From: a virus
Length of the DNA stretch: 64,000 nucleotides
Direction: 5' to 3' (one strand)
IMG/VR virus record: IMGVR_UViG_3300029914_000011
Location: 32,305-96,304 of that record
In this document: piece after piece, positions 5,447-47,117 of the stretch
How positions within the stretch are numbered: the first letter of the stretch is position 1
Layout: every line of letters starts with the position of its first letter
Made by a program: the position numbers and the translations under genes
Notes under the pieces: generated by a model
The model's database searches: none
What the model saw: only the letters and a program-made list of their open reading frames with translations
What the model was told of the DNA's origin: nothing

Positions 5447-5664
5447 TAAAGAAATTTAATTTCCCCAGAAATGTTAGTAATACAAAAATCTAAATAGGTT
5501 CCAGTGTATCTGCCTTCTTTATCGTATTGAGCATTGAATTCCCTAAAAAAGGTTTCCATATCTTCCAATGAATAGAATTTCCTCATAGCGGGAGTGGCAT
5601 CCTCGACATAATATACGACATGATAAGGTTTACTTTTGGTTTTTTTAGTGGCCTTCTTTTTCAT
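5446..5664 (-). CDS. Hypothetical protein, basic N-terminus
   Basis: 72 residues from ATG 5664, chosen over an upstream TTG because GGAGAG lies at the right distance. KKKATKKTKSK at the N-terminus, then a mixed alpha/beta part. Start lies inside the 3' end of the HAD-like gene. No family recognised. Confidence 0.65.
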   Translation of the reverse strand: MKKKATKKTKSKPYHVVYYVEDATPAMRKFYSLEDMETFFREFNAQYDKEGRYTGTYLDFCITNISGEIKFL

Positions 5665-6133
5665 TGTTCTCTCCAAATTTTTGAATTACTTTTTCTGCAT
5701 CGGAAAATGTAAGTCCGTTCTTGCTATCTATTTGTACTAACCTGTCTATAAAGGGCGCTAAGTCTGTTCCGTCATCAATAATTACAAAATTTGTAATTTC
5801 TGGATGGTACTTTAAATAAAGAGCGATCTCGTGGCCTCTATATCCATTTTCCAAAACTGGGGTTACGCCAACAATAAAGGATCCTGAAATATGGTACTGG
5901 TCAAACATTTCTTGCAGAGCTTCTATGGTGTAGTGTTTTCTCCAACTAGAAGTGATAACTATTTCGACTTTGGGGACTTCTTCTAAAATATATTGAAGAT
6001 TTGACATCGCAACTGGATCAAGAACTTTAGAACTAACGGTATTCGTTAAACCCAACAAATTCAAACGATTATTACAAATCATCGAACTAACTGAAACTAG
6101 GACCCCATCGATATCGACAAAGAGGGCTTTCAT
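5645..6133 (-). CDS. HAD-superfamily phosphatase-like protein (HAD_SAK type)
   Basis: 162 residues. HAD motif I is FVDIDGVL (nucleophile Asp7, acid Asp9), motif II is ITSSWR (60-65), and the acidic motif is VIIDDGTDL (about 117-125). The SSWR signature and short alpha/beta fold match HAD proteins that accompany RNA repair (the HAD_SAK families of Swiss Army Knife RNA repair proteins), which can remove phosphates from RNA ends. It is coupled by ATGA to a small zinc protein and then to an RlaP-like nucleotidyltransferase, and an RNA ligase lies 5 kb away. The substrate is not shown by sequence; a general nucleotidase or phosphatase role is the alternative. Confidence 0.85.
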   Translation of the reverse strand: MKALFVDIDGVLVSVSSMICNNRLNLLGLTNTVSSKVLDPVAMSNLQYILEEVPKVEIVITSSWRKHYTIEALQEMFDQYHISGSFIVGVTPVLENGYRGHEIALYLKYHPEITNFVIIDDGTDLAPFIDRLVQIDSKNGLTFSDAEKVIQKFGENNEKEGH

Positions 6134-6297
6134 ACTCTAAATACCTTAATGGTTCCACAATATCTACATTTACTGACCAACTTACGAGCCACGGGACGTT
6201 TCGTGCTTATCTCTTGATCAAATATGTCTATGGAATCCATAGTATGGAATCTATGTGGACAGAAAAACAGTCTTAAAATTTTGTATAGATACTTCAT
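6130..6297 (-). CDS. Small zinc-ribbon protein
   Basis: 55 residues from ATG 6297. CPH near residue 13 and CRYC near residue 44 form a Cys/His plus CxxC zinc site, a common small phage-protein pattern. ATGA overlaps join it to the RlaP-like gene upstream and the HAD-like gene downstream, so it may serve the same pathway. Function unknown. Confidence 0.75.
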   Translation of the reverse strand: MKYLYKILRLFFCPHRFHTMDSIDIFDQEISTKRPVARKLVSKCRYCGTIKVFRV

Positions 6298-7304
6298 TTG
6301 ATCTCTCTTTTTACTTCATCAGAATAAACATGGTAAACGAAATCCTTGATCCATTCAAGATCTGGTTTTGCTCGAAGAGTAGAAGTCTTTTCTACCTCGA
6401 CCAATTCTTCTAGGCCAGAAGTAATCATTTCAGATACTTGTTCGAATGGCAGTTGTTCGGTCTTGATCTTAATTAGCAATTCCGCATCTGGACGAGGGAA
6501 TGTGATATTTCCAGTACGAAGAAGTTCTAGGCCTTCACTGTTTACTCGAACAGCATGGGAAAGAGCCTTAAAACATACTCCACCGGCAATATTTGCCTTG
6601 CGTGAACGAGATCCGTACTCTGCATAGATTCGACTAACAATGTCTAAAGCGTCTTTTGCTCTAATTGCCATGGGAATAAAGCGACCACAAATTTTTAGGT
6701 GAGGTTGATTCATTTCGCCTTTAGGGTCTGGTTTCATTACCATTTCTATAAGCGGCGTTTTTTCGAGATTAACCAACGATTGCGTATGGTAAATTAAATC
6801 AAGAATTCCTTTTTCGTGATCTCTTAATCTGTCATATGGAGGAAAGGTTTCTAAGGAACCGATAGCCATTTTAAGGGCATCCATGCGAGTACCTTTTACG
6901 CCATACTTTGCAGCTTGTTTACGAGCATATCCAATGAAGGCATTAACATTCTTAGAAATAATTTTCTCTTTATTATCCCGAATTGTTTTGAAGATGTACC
7001 AGTTAGCGGGGTTCTTTGCCGTAAACATTTCGTCTGGGGAGAAGATCATATCAAGGGCCATGGTCTGGCCTTCTGCGAATAATTTTAAAAATTGATCAAC
7101 CGAGAAAATCTCAATATCTACATCGTCCTTACTATTGCGCTCTCCATGGGCCTTCTTTCGACTCATGTTTACCGTTTTGTGGTAGTCGTTTAATACGATT
7201 TGACGGCCCGTAGGCAAATAAATGGACTTAAAATCGAGATCAGACTTTGGAGTAGTTGTTCCGTAAAGAGCCGACCCAAATTTCAACTCAAAAAGCTTAT
7301 TCAT
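6294..7304 (-). CDS. RlaP-like nucleotidyltransferase (DNA polymerase beta superfamily)
   Basis: 336 residues. The N-terminus has the nucleotidyltransferase signature GSALYG followed by SDLDFK (Gly10-Ser11, Asp22 and Asp24 as metal ligands); a further acidic cluster (DVDIEIFS, about 62-69) supplies the third carboxylate. The size and layout match the predicted nucleotidyltransferase family known as RlaP, found beside RNA ligases in RNA repair operons. In this phage it sits with a HAD_SAK-like gene and a separate RNA ligase. The expected reaction is nucleotide addition to an RNA end, but this is family-based. It is translated just before the small zinc protein (ATGA). Confidence 0.88.
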   Translation of the reverse strand: MNKLFELKFGSALYGTTTPKSDLDFKSIYLPTGRQIVLNDYHKTVNMSRKKAHGERNSKDDVDIEIFSVDQFLKLFAEGQTMALDMIFSPDEMFTAKNPANWYIFKTIRDNKEKIISKNVNAFIGYARKQAAKYGVKGTRMDALKMAIGSLETFPPYDRLRDHEKGILDLIYHTQSLVNLEKTPLIEMVMKPDPKGEMNQPHLKICGRFIPMAIRAKDALDIVSRIYAEYGSRSRKANIAGGVCFKALSHAVRVNSEGLELLRTGNITFPRPDAELLIKIKTEQLPFEQVSEMITSGLEELVEVEKTSTLRAKPDLEWIKDFVYHVYSDEVKREIK

Positions 7305-10899: not shown

Positions 10900-11763
10900 T
10901 TATTTGATATTCATTGCGTGCTTAGTTTCAATTTCACTTTGGATGAATCTGAACAGTTGTCCGCCCATAGTTTTAGTCATTCCCTTTACTTCTGCATCTG
11001 TTCCTGTGATCTGACCTTCTTTGATCAAATCCGCAATGTAGTCTTTAGTAATCTGTGGAAGGGATTTAGGGTAACCAGTTAAATAGCGCTCATCTTTTGA
11101 AAGAAGTTTTTCGAGACGAATAGGTTGTAAGAGATGAGATACGTCGATTTTAGGCTTAGTATTTTCTCCAGAATTCCCCTTCTTGGGTTTTCCAGTCCAT
11201 TGGGTTTCTTCTTCCTCAAATACAACTTTATATCGCTCGTCTTTAATACGAACGACAACGCCTTCTGGGTGCATGAATCCAGAACTAAGTTTAGAGCCAT
11301 TTGTTTTGAGTTCATCCATTGCAATTTGGACTTGATTGAGATCAATTGGACCCTCATAAAGAACTGGCACAAGAACGGTTCGTGGTGGAAGCGGCTTATC
11401 TTTATAACGATAATAGTCAAAAAGAACGAAAACTTTTTGTTCTAAACCTTCTCCTGAGTTAATGCCCTTGCCAGCCCATTCGCCATCATGACGACCTTCT
11501 CCAAGAAGGTCGATGAAAGCCTGCTTGTTTGCGTAAACATGTGTGGCGAAATTGTAGTTATCATCGCCAGGAACTATGAATCGTGTGCGTGATCCACATG
11601 CAAGATCGAATCCATCTTCTACCTGCATAGAACCAACGCCATCGTGGACATCTTTAAATTTACGGTAAACAAGAATGTGAGCATTTGTACCATGAATCTT
11701 TTGCGTGATTGACATGACTACCGAACCTAATTTTTTAATTTCTGGGAAAGCTTTAAATTCCAT
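10900..11763 (-). CDS. RNA ligase (Rnl2-like nucleotidyltransferase fold)
   Basis: 287 residues from ATG 11763, preceded by AGGAG; a longer frame upstream runs through structured leader RNA and is rejected. Ligase motif I is KIHGTN with Lys22 as AMP acceptor; motif III-like FVLFDYYRY, motif IV PEGVVVRIK and motif V YKVVF follow in order. The C-terminal part is helical. It would join a 5'-phosphate to a 3'-hydroxyl RNA end with ATP. T4 Rnl2-type enzymes repair nicked RNA. The mRNA leader contains the structured RNA at 11867-12028, and the genome also carries RlaP-like and HAD_SAK-like genes plus an interrupted tRNA, so repair or splicing of phage stable RNAs is a reasonable inference. Confidence 0.92.
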   Translation of the reverse strand: MEFKAFPEIKKLGSVVMSITQKIHGTNAHILVYRKFKDVHDGVGSMQVEDGFDLACGSRTRFIVPGDDNYNFATHVYANKQAFIDLLGEGRHDGEWAGKGINSGEGLEQKVFVLFDYYRYKDKPLPPRTVLVPVLYEGPIDLNQVQIAMDELKTNGSKLSSGFMHPEGVVVRIKDERYKVVFEEEETQWTGKPKKGNSGENTKPKIDVSHLLQPIRLEKLLSKDERYLTGYPKSLPQITKDYIADLIKEGQITGTDAEVKGMTKTMGGQLFRFIQSEIETKHAMNIK

Positions 11764-11767
11764 AATT

Positions 11768-11866
11768 CTCCTAAATATAAACCCGTCACCACATGAAACC
11801 CATTTTAAGGCGCGTGACGGGCGCTCATGGAAAAGGTTAATGGTCAATCCCATGAACAAAAATTTC
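11768..11866 (-). promoter_or_regulatory. Leader hairpins of the RNA ligase mRNA
   Basis: Between the structured RNA and the ligase start two further hairpins form on the minus strand: TCATGG/CCATGA and the strong CCCGTCAC/GTGACGGG, the latter ending about 15 nt before the AGGAG. They could act as a processing site, attenuator or translation control. No U-tract follows, so read-through into the ligase gene is expected. Confidence 0.5.
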
Positions 11867-12130: not shown

Positions 12131-13978
12131 TTATGAACTAACTGCAACATCGTCGAGAGTAACTGCGGTCTGAGCATAAATACCTGTTCCGTGATATGTA
12201 GAAGTAGTCTGCATTGCCACGTTTGTACTGGCCAATATTGTTCCTCTGAATACGCTTGATACCCCAGCGGTTACGGATCCAGCAACAGCCCACATTACAT
12301 TTGAAGCTTGTGCTCCGCCAGTCATTACGATCTGAGCAGAACTAGCTAAATTCAAGGTAGAAGAACATTGGAATACCCAAGTGTCGTTCACGCCACCGTT
12401 TAAGGTTAACGTTCCGGTAATAGAAGTTGGTACGGTTAATTTGTATAATCCTGGAGCGAGAGTTAAACCACCAAGAGCACCTGCGCCTGGATTGGTTTGT
12501 GTAGGAGTAGTAAGTCCTTGAGCATTTGTGTAAGCAGTAGTCATATTAGCAACTGCAGTGGTAAGGTTAGCAGGTGTTGGAGCACTGTAATCTGCTGCGA
12601 AGATATGTCCAGTTACATTTGGAGCAGTAGAGAATTGACCAGAACCATCTAAGGTGAGTGTGAAGCCAGTAATTGCTGTGTGAGCGATTGGGGAAACACC
12701 CATTTCGCCAGTAACTGCAGATCCTGAAGTATCACTGATACCACTTTCTGACAAAATTCTATATGCAGAAGCTGCTCCAAGACTTGGAAGAGCTGGTCCT
12801 AATGCACTAATGGTATAAGCAGCACTTCCAACGGCAGAGTTGCTCAATCCAGCCTTTACAGCTAAAACCTTAAGAGTTTCAGATGCATTGATCAGAATTG
12901 GACCTGCATATGCAGTACTTCCAGTAGTTGGGGTTGATCCATCAAGAGTGTAGTAAAATAATGCGCTAGAAGTAAGGGAAGAAACGGTAACCATTTGGCT
13001 ACCAGCATAAGTTCCGGCTACAGGAGAGAAAGTTGGAGTTGCAACTTGACTTCCACCGATAATGTAGGCTGCTCCATTTACGATAGAGTTAGCAAATCCG
13101 TTTTTGATAGCAATAGCATTAACTTGTTCACTTGCACTAACAGTAATAGGAGTGCTGTAAAGTGAACTATTGATAGAAGGTTGGCTTCCGTCAGTAGTAT
13201 AATAAATTGAAGCACCAGCAGTTGCTGAACTTAAACTAACAGTTTGTGAAGATCCATAAGTACCAGCATTTGGAGAAAATGTAGGAAGAGCAGCCGCTTG
13301 ACTAACAACCGTTGGAATTACAGTAACTTTGTTGCTAGAGACTGAAGAGGTCGCAGCAGCTACATCCAAAGCAATTGCGGCCTGGGTTTTAGTGGCAATC
13401 GCAGCAGCCGAGTCAGAACTGAGGATGGTAGCTTCGATACCGGTAAAACCGATAGGAGCTGGATTAACGTTAGTTCCGCCCGATACATTGTACCAAATAT
13501 CGTACTGATTTGTATTACCAGCGGTAAATAGAGTGAAATATGCTCCGGCTCCAAAACTAGGGAAAGCGCTTCCGGCTGGCATTGAGAGAGAAATAACAGG
13601 TTGTTGTGCAGGTCCTTGAGTAACAGTGCTAGCACTGAAACCAGATGGCATAGAGATATTTTGAGGACCAGTATTAGGAATGGGCACTCCGATACCTACA
13701 CCACCAGCCAAATTAGATAAAACGTCTGCTAAAGATGCGATAGGTAATTCGAAACCGTCTGTAACGAATTCGATGTCACGAGCACTCAAGGCATAATTTC
13801 CTAAGATACAGTTTTGAAAATTTTGTGCAACTTGATTTTCCCCAAAACAACTCTCAAGTCGGGTAAAAGAGGACGGTGAAAGTAGGGCTTGAGTTTGGAT
13901 TGCGTTAATAAGCTCGGCACCAGCAGTATTGTCGCCCATGCCCGAGATTAGAAAGGGAAGAGATGAAGATTGTAACAT
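12131..13978 (-). CDS. Phage surface protein with two CHB_HEX_C repeats and a DUF3494 ice-binding-like domain
   Basis: 615 residues. Residues 1-230 are a unique N-terminal part (possibly virion attachment). Two tandem repeats of about 80 residues follow, each with FSPxAGTY, then YYTxDGSxP and a closing AAY; these match the chitobiase/beta-hexosaminidase C-terminal type module. The last 215 residues (LGAASAYRILSESGISDTSG to the end) have the Ala/Ser/Thr/Gly-rich pattern of DUF3494, a right-handed beta-helix that in many bacteria and algae binds ice or acts as an adhesin. There is no signal peptide, so a virion fibre or decoration protein is likely. Strong ribosome binding site AAGGAG and its own terminator indicate a single-gene, highly expressed unit. 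Ice binding itself is not proven. Confidence 0.85.
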   Translation of the reverse strand: MLQSSSLPFLISGMGDNTAGAELINAIQTQALLSPSSFTRLESCFGENQVAQNFQNCILGNYALSARDIEFVTDGFELPIASLADVLSNLAGGVGIGVPIPNTGPQNISMPSGFSASTVTQGPAQQPVISLSMPAGSAFPSFGAGAYFTLFTAGNTNQYDIWYNVSGGTNVNPAPIGFTGIEATILSSDSAAAIATKTQAAIALDVAAATSSVSSNKVTVIPTVVSQAAALPTFSPNAGTYGSSQTVSLSSATAGASIYYTTDGSQPSINSSLYSTPITVSASEQVNAIAIKNGFANSIVNGAAYIIGGSQVATPTFSPVAGTYAGSQMVTVSSLTSSALFYYTLDGSTPTTGSTAYAGPILINASETLKVLAVKAGLSNSAVGSAAYTISALGPALPSLGAASAYRILSESGISDTSGSAVTGEMGVSPIAHTAITGFTLTLDGSGQFSTAPNVTGHIFAADYSAPTPANLTTAVANMTTAYTNAQGLTTPTQTNPGAGALGGLTLAPGLYKLTVPTSITGTLTLNGGVNDTWVFQCSSTLNLASSAQIVMTGGAQASNVMWAVAGSVTAGVSSVFRGTILASTNVAMQTTSTYHGTGIYAQTAVTLDDVAVSS

Positions 13979-19260: not shown

Positions 19261-19405
19261 GTACCCTTAATCGGGTATAGTCTTACTGATCATTTTAGTA
19301 GCCTAAGACCATGCCTAGCATGGAACGTCGGTGCAAGTCCGGCTCAGTAAGCGTTCAGGTTGCCTGATCAGCGTAAAACCCTTAAAAAAGGTTCCCTGTT
19401 TTTAA
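19261..19405 (+). ncRNA. tRNA-like cloverleaf RNA
   Basis: A hairpin TACCC/GGGTA (19262-19277) precedes a 70-nt cloverleaf at 19282-19351: acceptor CTTACTGA/TCAGTAAG, a TTTTAG/CTAAGA hairpin, a CCATGC/GCATGG hairpin, and a T-arm GTCGG-TGCAAGT-CCGGC that joins the acceptor without a gap, as in tRNA. The first two arms have 3-4-nt loops, there is no D-loop GG and no normal anticodon loop, so it is a mimic rather than a working tRNA. A TCAGG/CCTGA hairpin and an AACC/GGTT hairpin with CTGTTTTT follow, a possible terminator. The only -10 candidates (TATGAT, TATATT at 19243-19253) lack a good -35. Lies on the strand opposite to its neighbours. Confidence 0.6.
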
Positions 19406-19597: not shown

Positions 19598-19734
19598 TCC
19601 AAGGGGCATGACTCGAACATGCGACACCCAGTTTATCATTCTGGTACTCTACCTTTAAGGTTACAATCATTCGGTCTGCGTTTCCCTTAAGACTACTCCG
19701 CAAACTTCCTTTTCACCATCTGAGTTACCCTTGG
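19598..19734 (-). tRNA. tRNA-Ile(GAU) interrupted by 64 nt in the D-loop
   Basis: Without the insert this is a normal 73-nt tRNA: acceptor CCAAGGG/CCCTTGG, TA at 8-9, D-stem ACTC/GAGT with loop AGATGGTA, anticodon arm CCAGA-ATGATAA-ACTGG (anticodon GAT, T33 and A37 present, one A-A mismatch at 31-39), variable loop GTGTC, T-arm GCATG-TTCGAGT-CATGC, discriminator A, no encoded CCA. After GGT of the D-loop there is a 64-nt insert at 19651-19714 that ends in a second GGT, so the exact ends are ambiguous by 3 nt. The insert folds as AAGG/CCTT around GTTTGCG/CGCAGAC. It is too short for a group I or II intron. It lies downstream of the tmRNA, in the same direction. Confidence 0.82.
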
Positions 19735-19827: not shown

Positions 19828-20228
19828 TGGTGGACCTGAGAGCATCGAAGCCCTGTCCGTCGATCATTTCAAAATCAATCTACGAGCGTAGGCCGTTTAA
19901 AGTCCGGCTCAGACTTAGGACCATCACGATTAAATGACGGGCTCCACCATCTTTGTGTGGCAACCCCAAAGCGGGTATAGAAGCAAGCCAAACTCACCAC
20001 TTGGATCGGCAGGTGACGCCGTTGTTTCCAGAATTATTTTACACAGTCACTGGATACTGCGACAAACTTCTTATTTCTAAGCTGCTTGTAACTCTTCGTA
20101 CTCTTCGTACAAAGAATCTTGAGAGTCTAACTCTGCATTTGTTTTTGATCAATTTTTAAGGTAGCCGTTGATCAACTACCGCTCGCATAATAATGTCCTA
20201 AACCTCCGTCGAAAACCTTTACAGGCCC
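19828..20228 (-). ncRNA. ssrA: Transfer-messenger RNA (tmRNA)
   Basis: 401 nt. The 5' end GGGCCTG pairs with CAGGTCC near the 3' end (one G-U), followed by discriminator A and encoded CCA. The conserved 5' block GTAAAGGTTTTCGACGG and ATGCGAGC are present. The first pseudoknot is visible: GGTAG/CTACC interleaved with GATCAA/TTGATC. The tag frame runs from GCA at 20136 to TAG at 20077 and reads AELDSQDSLYEEYEELQAA, ending in AA like proteolysis tags but with Gln instead of the usual Leu-Ala context and unusually acidic. The T-arm is AGGGC-TTCGAT-GCTCT. Further helices (CCGTC/GACGG, CTACG/CGTAG, AAGTC/GACTT) form the later pseudoknot region. tmRNA rescues stalled ribosomes with SmpB; no SmpB gene is seen here, so host SmpB would be used. 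Confidence 0.93.
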
Positions 20229-25421: not shown

Positions 25422-26108
25422 TTAGAGCTTTTTACTAAATCTATCCATTTTCATTTCTTTCCACAGGGCAAGAAAATCGCGTCTCGCTTTGGCTCGATAC
25501 GCTCTCCACATTCTCTGCTTCATGTGGGCGGAAGGAAGGGTAAGAGCGTTAGAGGGCAAAAGGGAAGTCCTCACCAGGCGGAAGCCGATGTAGAAGTAGC
25601 GAAGGCCAGCGTCGCCGTTGCTGCGCTGGGCGGAACGCAAGAACAGCGGATCGCCGTACCAACTGCCCCCGCGAAGCACGCGGTACGAACTATCCTTGAA
25701 CCATAAATCTTGGCACCATTCCCAAACATTTCCATGCATATCGTAAAGGCCGAATTTATTAGGCTTCTTTAAGCCTACCGAATGGACTTTATTGCCTGAA
25801 TTTGTGTAGAACCATGCATAATCTTCTAATTCTTTTTCGTCATTGCCGAAGCAGAAATCGGTTGTACTGCCTGCTCTGCAGGCATATTCCCATTCTTCTT
25901 CAGTAGGGAGTCGGTAGGTATATTTTCCTTTTTTGGAGTTCACTTTACTTAGGAATTCCTGAACATCGTTCCAGGAGACTTGTTCGACTGGATTTTTATT
26001 GCCTTTAAAGTAAGATGGATTATTTCCCATTACTTTTTGCCATTCAACTTGGGTGCATTGATAGACAGACATTTCAAAATCTTTACCGGGTATTTTAACG
26101 AATTTCAT
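25422..26108 (-). CDS. FGE/sulfatase-modifying-factor-like protein, probable DGR target
   Basis: 228 residues. The formylglycine-generating-enzyme-like C-type lectin fold is clear: QCTQVEWQKVMGNNPSYF, NPVEQVSWNDVQEF, YRLPTEEEWEYACRAG and GLYDMHGNVWEWC. The end of the domain (RVLRGGSW to IGFRLV) is far more GC-rich than its surroundings, and its diversified-type residues are mostly NNC or NNT codons (TAC GGC GAT, AGC AAC GGC GAC, TAC TTC TAC). This is the layout of a diversity-generating retroelement variable region, whose template would carry AAC codons there. A 50-residue basic tail follows. Such proteins are ligand-binding display proteins; enzymatic formylglycine formation is less likely. 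Confidence 0.85.
   Translation of the reverse strand: MKFVKIPGKDFEMSVYQCTQVEWQKVMGNNPSYFKGNKNPVEQVSWNDVQEFLSKVNSKKGKYTYRLPTEEEWEYACRAGSTTDFCFGNDEKELEDYAWFYTNSGNKVHSVGLKKPNKFGLYDMHGNVWEWCQDLWFKDSSYRVLRGGSWYGDPLFLRSAQRSNGDAGLRYFYIGFRLVRTSLLPSNALTLPSAHMKQRMWRAYRAKARRDFLALWKEMKMDRFSKKL
25569..25685 (-). other. Candidate DGR variable region
   Basis: GC-rich 3' segment of the FGE-like gene. Conserved blocks VLRGGSW, LRSA, AG and IGFRLV alternate with codons that fit adenine mutagenesis of AAY codons. The GC-rich stretch at 25569-25590 would be the homing-initiation end. No near-identical template copy or reverse transcriptase lies in this window. Confidence 0.6.
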
Positions 26109-30140: not shown

Positions 30141-30887
30141 CTAAAGTATGGAATTGTGTCCTTCACGGGAAATGTACCTAATATGAACTGGCAATTTTAC
30201 GGACTTAAGCATCCCGTCGATCTCTACAAAACGATTAACATACGCAATCATAACTTCTTTAATGTCCGCTAAAAGTTCATTCTGGAAGATAGCCTCGTAT
30301 TGAGACGTAGTTGAGAAGACGGGGCAAACTCTCAGGTTTACTAGGCTTGTGTCTTTAGGCAGAAGGCGCAGGATGTCTTCCACCTGCTCGGCGGTGGCAG
30401 CCTCCATATCGAATCCCTTAACTACGGTCTGAGCCATCGAAATCCCGAAGTTACAGTAGAACTGGCCTCTAGGCAGGTCGAGATTCAAGCAGGCGGTGTC
30501 GCCAATCATGCCTTCCGGGAAGGAATAGCCAGCAGCTAATACTTCGGCATCGGCGAGGCGTGAAGCCGGGACGAGGACAAATGCGTGAGCCACAATTGCC
30601 GAGTGACGACCCGGACCATGGTAAAGATCGATGGTATTAAGCGGTGCAATAGTCGAATGGACCAAGCCGTAGGAAACCAGTGTATTGATCAGTTCGGCCA
30701 GTTCAGAGACTGCTAATTCCTTATCAGTGGTCTTAGAAATCTTGGTAAGGTAGATAGCCTGGTAGACCTTGTCGTCCTCTACTAGCGTGGAGGTAGTGGC
30801 ACGCTTACCCATGAGAGTTTGGGCTTCGGGGCTAAGATAACTTAGGTATTGACAGTCAGTGGTGGTGGCCGGGTTATCAGGATTCAT
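30141..30887 (-). CDS. Hypothetical protein of higher GC content
   Basis: 248 residues, acidic, no Lys-rich bias, no signal peptide. Codons end in G or C much more often than in neighbouring genes. Likely alpha/beta. With the following 70-residue gene it forms a small compositionally distinct unit beside the repeat-rich region. No family recognised. Confidence 0.75.
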   Translation of the reverse strand: MNPDNPATTTDCQYLSYLSPEAQTLMGKRATTSTLVEDDKVYQAIYLTKISKTTDKELAVSELAELINTLVSYGLVHSTIAPLNTIDLYHGPGRHSAIVAHAFVLVPASRLADAEVLAAGYSFPEGMIGDTACLNLDLPRGQFYCNFGISMAQTVVKGFDMEAATAEQVEDILRLLPKDTSLVNLRVCPVFSTTSQYEAIFQNELLADIKEVMIAYVNRFVEIDGMLKSVKLPVHIRYISREGHNSIL

Positions 30888-46347: not shown

Positions 46348-46515
46348 ATGGACAAGTATACAAGAACCTATGACGGATATTATATTGTAGAATACTATAC
46401 CGATACTGAAACACCCACTTCTAATTCAGGAGTAGTTATCAACATTAAGTCATGGTATCCAGCATGGTTAGTAAGATTGGTTGTTCGTTATAAGCTATCA
46501 AGGAGTAAGTCATGA
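46348..46515 (+). CDS. Small hypothetical protein
   Basis: 55 residues from ATG 46348, no Shine-Dalgarno. Beta-rich, then a basic amphipathic C-terminus. ATGA-coupled to the recombinase, so it may control its translation. Confidence 0.6.
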   Translation: MDKYTRTYDGYYIVEYYTDTETPTSNSGVVINIKSWYPAWLVRLVVRYKLSRSKS

Positions 46516-47117
46516 AACACGTAGCAGTTTATTTGCGAGTAAGTACAGAAGGATTAAAAGGTGGTAAAGAGCAGACCACTGGTTCTCAACGTTTAGAGAT
46601 TGAGATTTATCTTAAATCCAAAGGTATTACCGATTTTGTAGCGTATGAGGATTTAGGAATAAGCGGCACCAAGAAAGATCGCCCATCGCTAAAAAAATTG
46701 ATGACTGACTGTCGCCAAGGAAAAGTTTCTATGGTGGTATGCTACAAGATGGACCGCCTCTTCCGAAGTCTCCCCGATTTGCTAGAAACTTTAGCGGAAT
46801 TCACGAAACTAAGTATAGAGTTCGTAGCCTTGAAAGATGGGATCGATTTGTCCAATGCTACCGGTCGCCTTATGATGCAGATTCTTGGGGCATTCGCAGA
46901 ATTCGAGGCAAGCGTAACGAAGGAAAGGGTATTGTCAGGTCTGGCCAACGCCAAGGCTAAGGGCGTGAAACTGGGGCGTCCTATGAAGACTGGCCATGCG
47001 GTTGTGGATAAACTTAAGGGTGAAGGACATAGTGTTATAGAGATTTCAAATATTACGGGACTAAGTCGGCAGAGCATTTATAGGACTTTGAATAAGGAGA
47101 ATCGAAATGAAAACTAA
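46512..47117 (+). CDS. Serine recombinase (resolvase/invertase type)
   Basis: 201 residues, typical of small resolvases and DNA invertases, not large integrases. Catalytic Ser11 in YLRVST, the arginine motif KMDRLFRS (Asp81-Arg82, Arg85), the long E-helix (RLMMQILGAFAEFEASVTKE) and a C-terminal helix-turn-helix (VIEISNITGLSRQSIYRTL) are all present, so it looks active. It would recombine two short sites by double-strand exchange. The sequence is more GC-rich than its neighbours, suggesting transfer. No paired inverted sites were found around it. Confidence 0.95.
   Translation: MKHVAVYLRVSTEGLKGGKEQTTGSQRLEIEIYLKSKGITDFVAYEDLGISGTKKDRPSLKKLMTDCRQGKVSMVVCYKMDRLFRSLPDLLETLAEFTKLSIEFVALKDGIDLSNATGRLMMQILGAFAEFEASVTKERVLSGLANAKAKGVKLGRPMKTGHAVVDKLKGEGHSVIEISNITGLSRQSIYRTLNKENRNEN

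Follow-up and report, generated by a model that had tools for sequence, protein, structure and literature searches.

A phage tRNA-Ile(GAU) gene with a 64-nt insert in the D-loop: comparison with other tRNA inserts and possible fates of the insert

Inserts described in tRNA genes

Passages of a 2014 review describe bacterial tRNA genes as uniform, with group I and group II introns at position 37/38 as the only significant exception, and put the catalytic core of these introns at roughly 100 nt or more (PMC4033280). An earlier, sequence-only reading of the locus reported here had held that tRNA introns of bacteria and phages normally belong to group I and sit in the anticodon loop; the review bears this out for bacteria, but the Lak megaphages have been reported to carry short 'enigmatic' tRNA introns (PMC6784885), and other phages carry the anticodon-stem inserts described below. 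The Lak introns, which are also mentioned in parts of PMC8346664, resemble our case in being enigmatic inserts in phage tRNA genes, and differ from it in having been predicted with tRNAscan-SE in eukaryotic mode, as stated in sections of the original account (PMC6784885). Three cyanobacterial tRNAs carry introns of 22-49 nt, called group I by the authors, which likewise are short inserts in bacterial tRNA genes but lie in the anticodon loop, and excerpts of that work report none elsewhere in the tRNA (PMC5733544).

Closer in position are archaeal tRNA introns, known at 20/21, and the nucleomorph of Guillardia theta, where non-canonical tRNA inserts, some of them in the D-arm, were reported as introns and their excision was observed by RT-PCR, the route being then unknown (PMC4090602, in excerpt). 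Both share with our locus an insert in the D-arm; however, archaeal splice sites form a BHB or relaxed BHB, whereas the present insert has no strict BHB, and the G. theta inserts cited there measure 3-24 nt against 64 nt here. According to the same excerpts, eukaryotic nuclear tRNA genes with D- or T-arm insertions have mostly been taken for pseudogenes. Among the matches listed in the open PubMed Central literature, as far as their accessible text goes, no D-loop insert was described in a phage or bacterial tRNA, and the accessible part of PMC12619734 added nothing on introns. Judged from sequence, the D-loop would be a place where phages had not been seen to carry this previously noticed kind of oddity, and there is a fair chance that a new splicing route lies behind it.

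An interrupted tRNA-Ile(GAU) gene

The window, that is, the whole stretch of DNA analysed, comprises 64 kb of a 96-kb viral record. Four relatives of this phage were recognised by an RNR protein 76-83% identical to its own, a fifth contig belonging to the same phage, and a search of phage records with the tail sheath yielded a single match, to Myxococcus phage Mx1 (41%). The tRNA-Ile gene has the coordinates given in the earlier reading and lies on the minus strand (Table 1), where the order is tmRNA (20228-19828), a 93-nt leader and tRNA-Ile (19734-19598). The tag of the tmRNA is AELDSQDSLYEEYEELQAA.

Table 1. Features of the interrupted tRNA-Ile locus, RNA-repair genes of the phage and members of the anticodon-stem insert family
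Feature	Position in window (or records)	Strand	Basis
tRNA-Ile(GAU) gene with D-loop insert, 137 nt	19598-19734	minus	
Exon 1, nt 1-20 (acceptor 5' strand, U8A9, D-stem 5' strand, D-loop AGATGGT)	19715-19734	minus	pairing with exon 2 (7/7 in acceptor, 4/4 in D-stem); ARAGORN on joined exons
Insert in D-loop, 64 nt	19651-19714	minus	single gap against CcrSC tRNA-Ile(GAT); ends ambiguous by 3 nt
Exon 2 (D-stem 3' strand, anticodon arm, variable loop, T-arm, acceptor 3' strand, A73)	19598-19650	minus	ARAGORN on joined exons; CcrSC alignment
Anticodon GAT	19635-19637	minus	ARAGORN on joined exons
Hairpin in insert, 7-bp stem GUUUGCG/CGCAGAC	19674-19705	minus	
Insert segment GATTGTAACCT, complementary to leader segment over 11 bp (1 G-U)	19658-19668	minus	
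Leader segment AGGTTACAATT, directly 5' of tRNA-Ile, pairs with insert segment	19737-19747	minus	
Phage tmRNA, upstream of tRNA-Ile, same strand	19828-20228	minus	ARAGORN; Rfam RF00023, 65.5 bits
Rnl2-like RNA ligase, contains KIHGTN	10900-11859	minus	Pfam PF09414, 39.7 bits; phrog_548
RlaP-type nucleotidyltransferase	6294-7304	minus	phrog_388, E 3.9e-70; PF10127, 42.6 bits
HAD domain protein, RNA-repair 'Swiss army knife' family	5645-6133	minus	PF18143, 83.9 bits
Anticodon-stem insert family (alignment A2)	L038, L044, L075, L107, L111, L139, L254, L265, L275, L289, L301, L327, L342, L350, L353		

When the exons were joined without 19714-19651, so that CCAAGGGTAACTCAGATGGT meets AGAGTACC, ARAGORN recognised the 73-nt product as tRNA-Ile(GAT), whereas the intact gene gave no call in default mode. 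BLAST aligned nt 4-69 of the joined exons in one piece with tRNA-Ile(GAT) of Caulobacter phage CcrSC (80.3%, E 5e-8), an annotated, uninterrupted tRNA gene (MH588547.2, 88564-88636), and global alignment of the intact gene with this homologue covered the full length of both, needing one gap only, of 64 nt, and leaving 56/73 positions identical. Both results confirm that removal of the insert restores a 73-nt tRNA-Ile(GAU). The CcrSC gene shares the anticodon and an identical D-loop, CTCAGATGGTAGAG, and differs in having no insert; 17 of the 73 positions have changed between the two, yet 20 of the 21 stem pairs are kept. The restored tRNA had been called near-perfect, which is accurate for the acceptor (7/7 Watson-Crick, or 8/8 if T-1 with A73 is counted), the D-stem, which pairs 4/4 across the insert, the T-stem (5/5) and the conserved bases (U8, A14, G15 with C48, G18G19, U33, A37, A73 and the T-loop TTCGAGT), but not for the anticodon stem (4/5), where A31.A39 is the sole mismatch. 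A cloverleaf with four arms and the conserved tertiary bases is found after joining, with that one exception, and no uninterrupted cloverleaf of ordinary length was found in the gene by ARAGORN in default mode or by Rfam; on the intact locus the latter matched a truncated tRNA at 27.3 bits, under the cut-off of 29, and its eight other matches there (up to E 10) all fell far under their own cut-offs. As for signs of a pseudogene in the form of lost conserved bases or pairs, we saw the stem mismatch and CCC instead of CCA after A73, the exons being otherwise intact. These comparisons give good support to a real tRNA-Ile gene into which 64 nt have been inserted. No second tRNA was detected by ARAGORN in the 64-kb window, and AUU plus AUC account for 320 of 370 isoleucine codons in the 14 ORFs counted.

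Contig IMGVR_UViG_3300029922_001797 is identical across the locus, which argues against an assembly slip; being the same phage, perhaps from the same sample, it does not inform about conservation. The phage is present in samples 3300029922, 3300030004, 3300030020 and 3300029953. The same insert was sought in relatives and found in nothing beyond this sibling contig, and phage and plasmid records contained no DNA match to the locus. Two relatives, G001 and G003, were scanned whole with a descriptor and showed no tRNA with a D-loop insert: four acceptor-plus-T-arm candidates appeared in G001 and none in G003, and inspection by eye revealed no cloverleaf among them; their stretches also contributed nothing to the insert-bearing candidates listed in the viral descriptor scan below. 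Two of the 44 further records reached via the tail sheath, most of which are short fragments, had an Rfam tRNA at E 1. In G003, next to its homologue of window 30141-30887, the region 46500-46850 (1900-2350 of L016) shows seemingly degenerate tRNA-like elements, weak tmRNA matches and one tRNA match that exceeds the Rfam cut-off. A tRNA-like fold was also seen on the plus strand of the window at 19282-19351, with an 8-bp acceptor and two hairpins that resemble a T-arm (loop TGCAAGT) and an anticodon arm (around CUA), lacking the D-loop GG, U33 and T55 (z -1.62; no Rfam match above the cut-off).

The trinucleotide GGT occurs at both insert junctions, as had been noticed, so that four cut placements are equivalent and position 20/21 is one of them; a 3-nt repeat may be due to chance. 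The insert was rightly judged too short for a group I intron: at 64 nt it falls below the group I and II core of about 100 nt or more, and it matched no Rfam intron model. Nor did any Rfam ribozyme match, and no Rfam family reads the insert except as tRNA. A strict archaeal-type BHB (a 4-bp central helix between two 3-nt bulges) was not found, with at most 2/4 central pairs in the 8 placements scored. The insert folds no better than shuffled sequences (z -0.22), and neither does the leader together with the gene (z -0.24); the 11-bp leader-insert helix is a weak hint, 13 of 300 shuffles yielding a best helix as good or better. The insert's 3' end might hold a degenerate duplicate of the D-stem half (TAACCTTAAAGG versus TAACTCAGATGG); with 7/12 and p 0.064 in 20,000 shuffles, this reading was dropped.

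Inserts in tRNA genes of other viral contigs

Five pattern scans aimed at the D-loop were run on public collections (four viral, one of genomes), followed by a descriptor scan, which detects intact tRNAs only; all counts are lower bounds. A strict descriptor, demanding a 7/7 acceptor, a 4/4 D-stem, a T-arm, an anticodon arm and an insert in the D-loop, found at least 5 distinct matches in 369 viral loci totalling 3.25 Mb, overlaps included, and none in ten shuffles (32.5 Mb) or in the reversed sequence. In the descriptor scan the same loci held at least 33 insert-bearing candidates, beside at least 1790 T-arms of normal tRNAs, and a script assigned at least 25 of the candidates to the anticodon arm and at least 8 to a D-type; among the latter, L093 and L276 (1663) are better read as anticodon-stem inserts. 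The candidate L071 is doubtful. Besides the window, D-loop inserts were found at least in L294 (anticodon AAT), L355 (TAT) and L348 (ACT), with less certainty in L101 (TGT, acceptor with two extra bases) and L320 (TCA, acceptor 6/7). All five were recognised by ARAGORN as tRNA when joined and not when intact, and their 39-59 extra nt lie between the D-loop GG and the 3' strand of the D-stem. They differ from the window gene in anticodon, and by inspection the insert sequences show no likeness to one another. Genes of phage families stand beside two of them, a terminase gene in L294 and a DNA polymerase gene in L355; the DNA methylases in the neighbourhood of L348 are a less telling sign of a phage. 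ARAGORN saw no further tRNAs in the examined stretches of these three records.

Of the comparators, L101 clearly repeats the D-stem half where its insert ends on the 3' side (10/12, p 0.0001); L294 (p 0.14), L348 (p 0.39) and L320 (p 0.74) do not. In 118 stretches of genome contigs there was no D-type candidate, and the one candidate of another type, L463, looks like a repeated tRNA. Thirty stretches with pattern matches turned out to be neighbouring or truncated tRNAs; one of them had a 7/7 acceptor, and L101 was picked by eye. Genes with D-loop inserts are poorly visible to standard tools: ARAGORN in default mode misses 6/6, and Rfam at its cut-off misses 5/6 (window, L294, L355, L348 and L320), L101 being found as a fragment.

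The scans also revealed conserved inserts, about 48-72 nt long, that interrupt the anticodon stem in tRNA genes of phages and terminate in AGAG(U/A)UACUUC at the 3' exon. From 22 candidates, L053 and L142 proved false and L262 (77 nt) was omitted, leaving 19 for alignment, in which all five pairs of the RNAalifold hairpin had sequences changed on both sides. A covariance model built on this family, R1, gave 38 matches in 45 sources (some being the same contig twice), with scores of 22-58 bits. At seven loci, six of them with family members, Rfam 15 showed only tRNA, tRNA-Sec and tmRNA. The family resembles the window insert in length and in the intact state of the exons; however, it sits in the anticodon stem and contains a covarying hairpin, whereas the window insert lies in the D-loop and has no R1 match, the four matches in the window scoring 4.3-8.6 bits and none being on the tRNA-Ile strand. 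From its alignment, the anticodon-stem family looks like a compact, structured tRNA intron and is perhaps a better finding than the D-loop insert. A possible second kind of anticodon-arm insert, without the UACUUC end and in several cases with CAGCA, was seen in L296, L297, L316, L317 and L322.

RNA-repair genes and the fate of the insert

The phage encodes the RNA ligase that the sequence-only reading had assumed, together with a repair-type HAD protein and an RlaP-type nucleotidyltransferase, all on the same strand as tRNA-Ile and 7.7-14 kb distant from it. The ligase, which showed no match to PDB sequences at E 0.01, contains KIHGTN, which we take to be the nucleotidyl-lysine motif; the HAD protein may act as a 3'-phosphatase. 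The Pfam scan covered 29 proteins of the window, out of 120 listed ORFs of at least 80 aa, and showed no 5' kinase. The phage thus has sealing tools, though with another known use, since RlaP together with RNA ligase in large phages is read, in parts of PMC7824862, as a means of mending tRNAs that host defence has cleaved. The ligase showed no useful association with inserts that would make it a marker for phages carrying them: PF09414 was present in 7/20 records at E 0.001 and in 5/20 over the cut-off, RtcB in 2/23, and the records are fragments. Elsewhere in the window are a phage protein with an ice-binding-like domain and chitobiase C-terminal-type repeats (12131-13978; homologue in G003), an FGE-sulfatase-like protein (25422-26108) and a serine resolvase (46512-47117).

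Excision of the insert with ligation of the exons ranks first among the explanations considered, ahead of a decaying gene and of a retained, oversized D-arm, although we hold it only tentatively. Its rank reflects the precedents and the state of the exons, and is a prior rather than a result. A real phage tRNA-Ile(GAU) gene has gained 64 nt at the length-variable point of the D-loop; on this reading a candidate nuclease would cut the 137-nt precursor at or near the two GGU sequences, after which the HAD protein and the Rnl2-like ligase of the phage itself could plausibly heal and seal the ends, to give a 73-nt tRNA that could be charged and used to read AUU and AUC. In favour are the recognition of the joined exons and not of the intact gene, the identical, uninterrupted D-loop of CcrSC, the retention of stems in diverged exons with the D-stem pairing across the insert, the repair genes on the same strand, the predominance of AUU and AUC among the isoleucine codons counted, and the precedents of the archaeal 20/21 introns and nucleomorph excision (PMC4090602, in excerpt). 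Against it stand the lack of a strict BHB, of an Rfam ribozyme or intron and of an R1 match, a fold like that of shuffles and no motif common to the inserts. The usual explanation of ligase and RlaP sets by tRNA repair (PMC7824862, in part) also weighs against it, as do the failure to find a 5' kinase in the 29 proteins, the presence of a ligase in G003, where scans found no D-loop-insert tRNA, the absence of PF09414 from the three strict comparator records L294, L355 and L348, all fragments, the A31.A39 mismatch and CCC in place of CCA. Finally, with the insert found in one phage only, nothing shows conservation.

Phage tRNAs are accessory, and the insert could be a recent accident in a dispensable gene whose 137-nt RNA is inert. 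The mismatch, the missing CCA, a fold no better than shuffles and the failure to find the insert outside one phage agree with such decay, as does the pseudogene reading of most eukaryotic nuclear D- and T-arm insertions (PMC4090602, in excerpt). We nevertheless consider it unlikely: the checked tertiary-contact bases and all acceptor, D- and T-stem pairs are kept, and D-loop inserts recur in otherwise intact tRNAs of unrelated viral contigs, a recurrence seen with a descriptor blind to non-intact ones. The 64 nt might instead stay in place as one or two extra hairpins, the 137-nt RNA working in translation or as a decoy. No unknown splicing enzyme is then needed, and the insert is at a site of natural D-loop length variation. 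A cloverleaf in which the insert folds separately costs 1.6 kcal/mol relative to the MFE, and in L294 such a cloverleaf is itself the MFE. Cloverleaves formed with the L294 and L355 inserts are unusually stable, with 17/400 and 12/400 shuffled inserts as good (101/400 for L348). In the window, however, the penalty is ordinary, 128/400 shuffled inserts doing as well and 237/400 giving equal or lower cloverleaf energy, and with the insert in place the D-stem pairing probability is 0.01; we know of no mature tRNA with a comparably long D-loop, and retention is placed third, as rather improbable. Intervening sequences of some bacterial 23S rRNAs are excised without ligation, and a nicked tRNA held by base pairs could arise likewise, the insert hairpin offering a nuclease target in a D-loop exposed to nicking; with a stem of 7 bp, which is short, and no precedent in tRNA to our knowledge, we regard this as very improbable. 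Lastly, ARAGORN with -i read the intact gene as tRNA-Leu(TAA) with a 40-nt anticodon-loop intron. This call looks spurious and is hardly credible: when the insert is shuffled, the same mode still calls some tRNA in 23/300 genes, its leucine model has a poor D-arm and a poor variable arm, and the isoleucine reading has a homologue.

It is conceivable, though doubtful, that phages carry a class of D-loop tRNA introns, diverse in sequence and lacking both a strict BHB and the hallmarks of group I, that would be removed via phage RNA-repair enzymes (nuclease, HAD, RlaP and Rnl2-like ligase); such a class would represent, as far as we know, the first case of tRNA splicing that depends on proteins in bacterial cells. 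The misses of ARAGORN and Rfam imply that the tRNA sets of phages may be undercounted. If D-loop inserts are spliced, they would point to an unknown RNA-processing route in bacteria, and if they are retained, tRNA would tolerate more than is believed.
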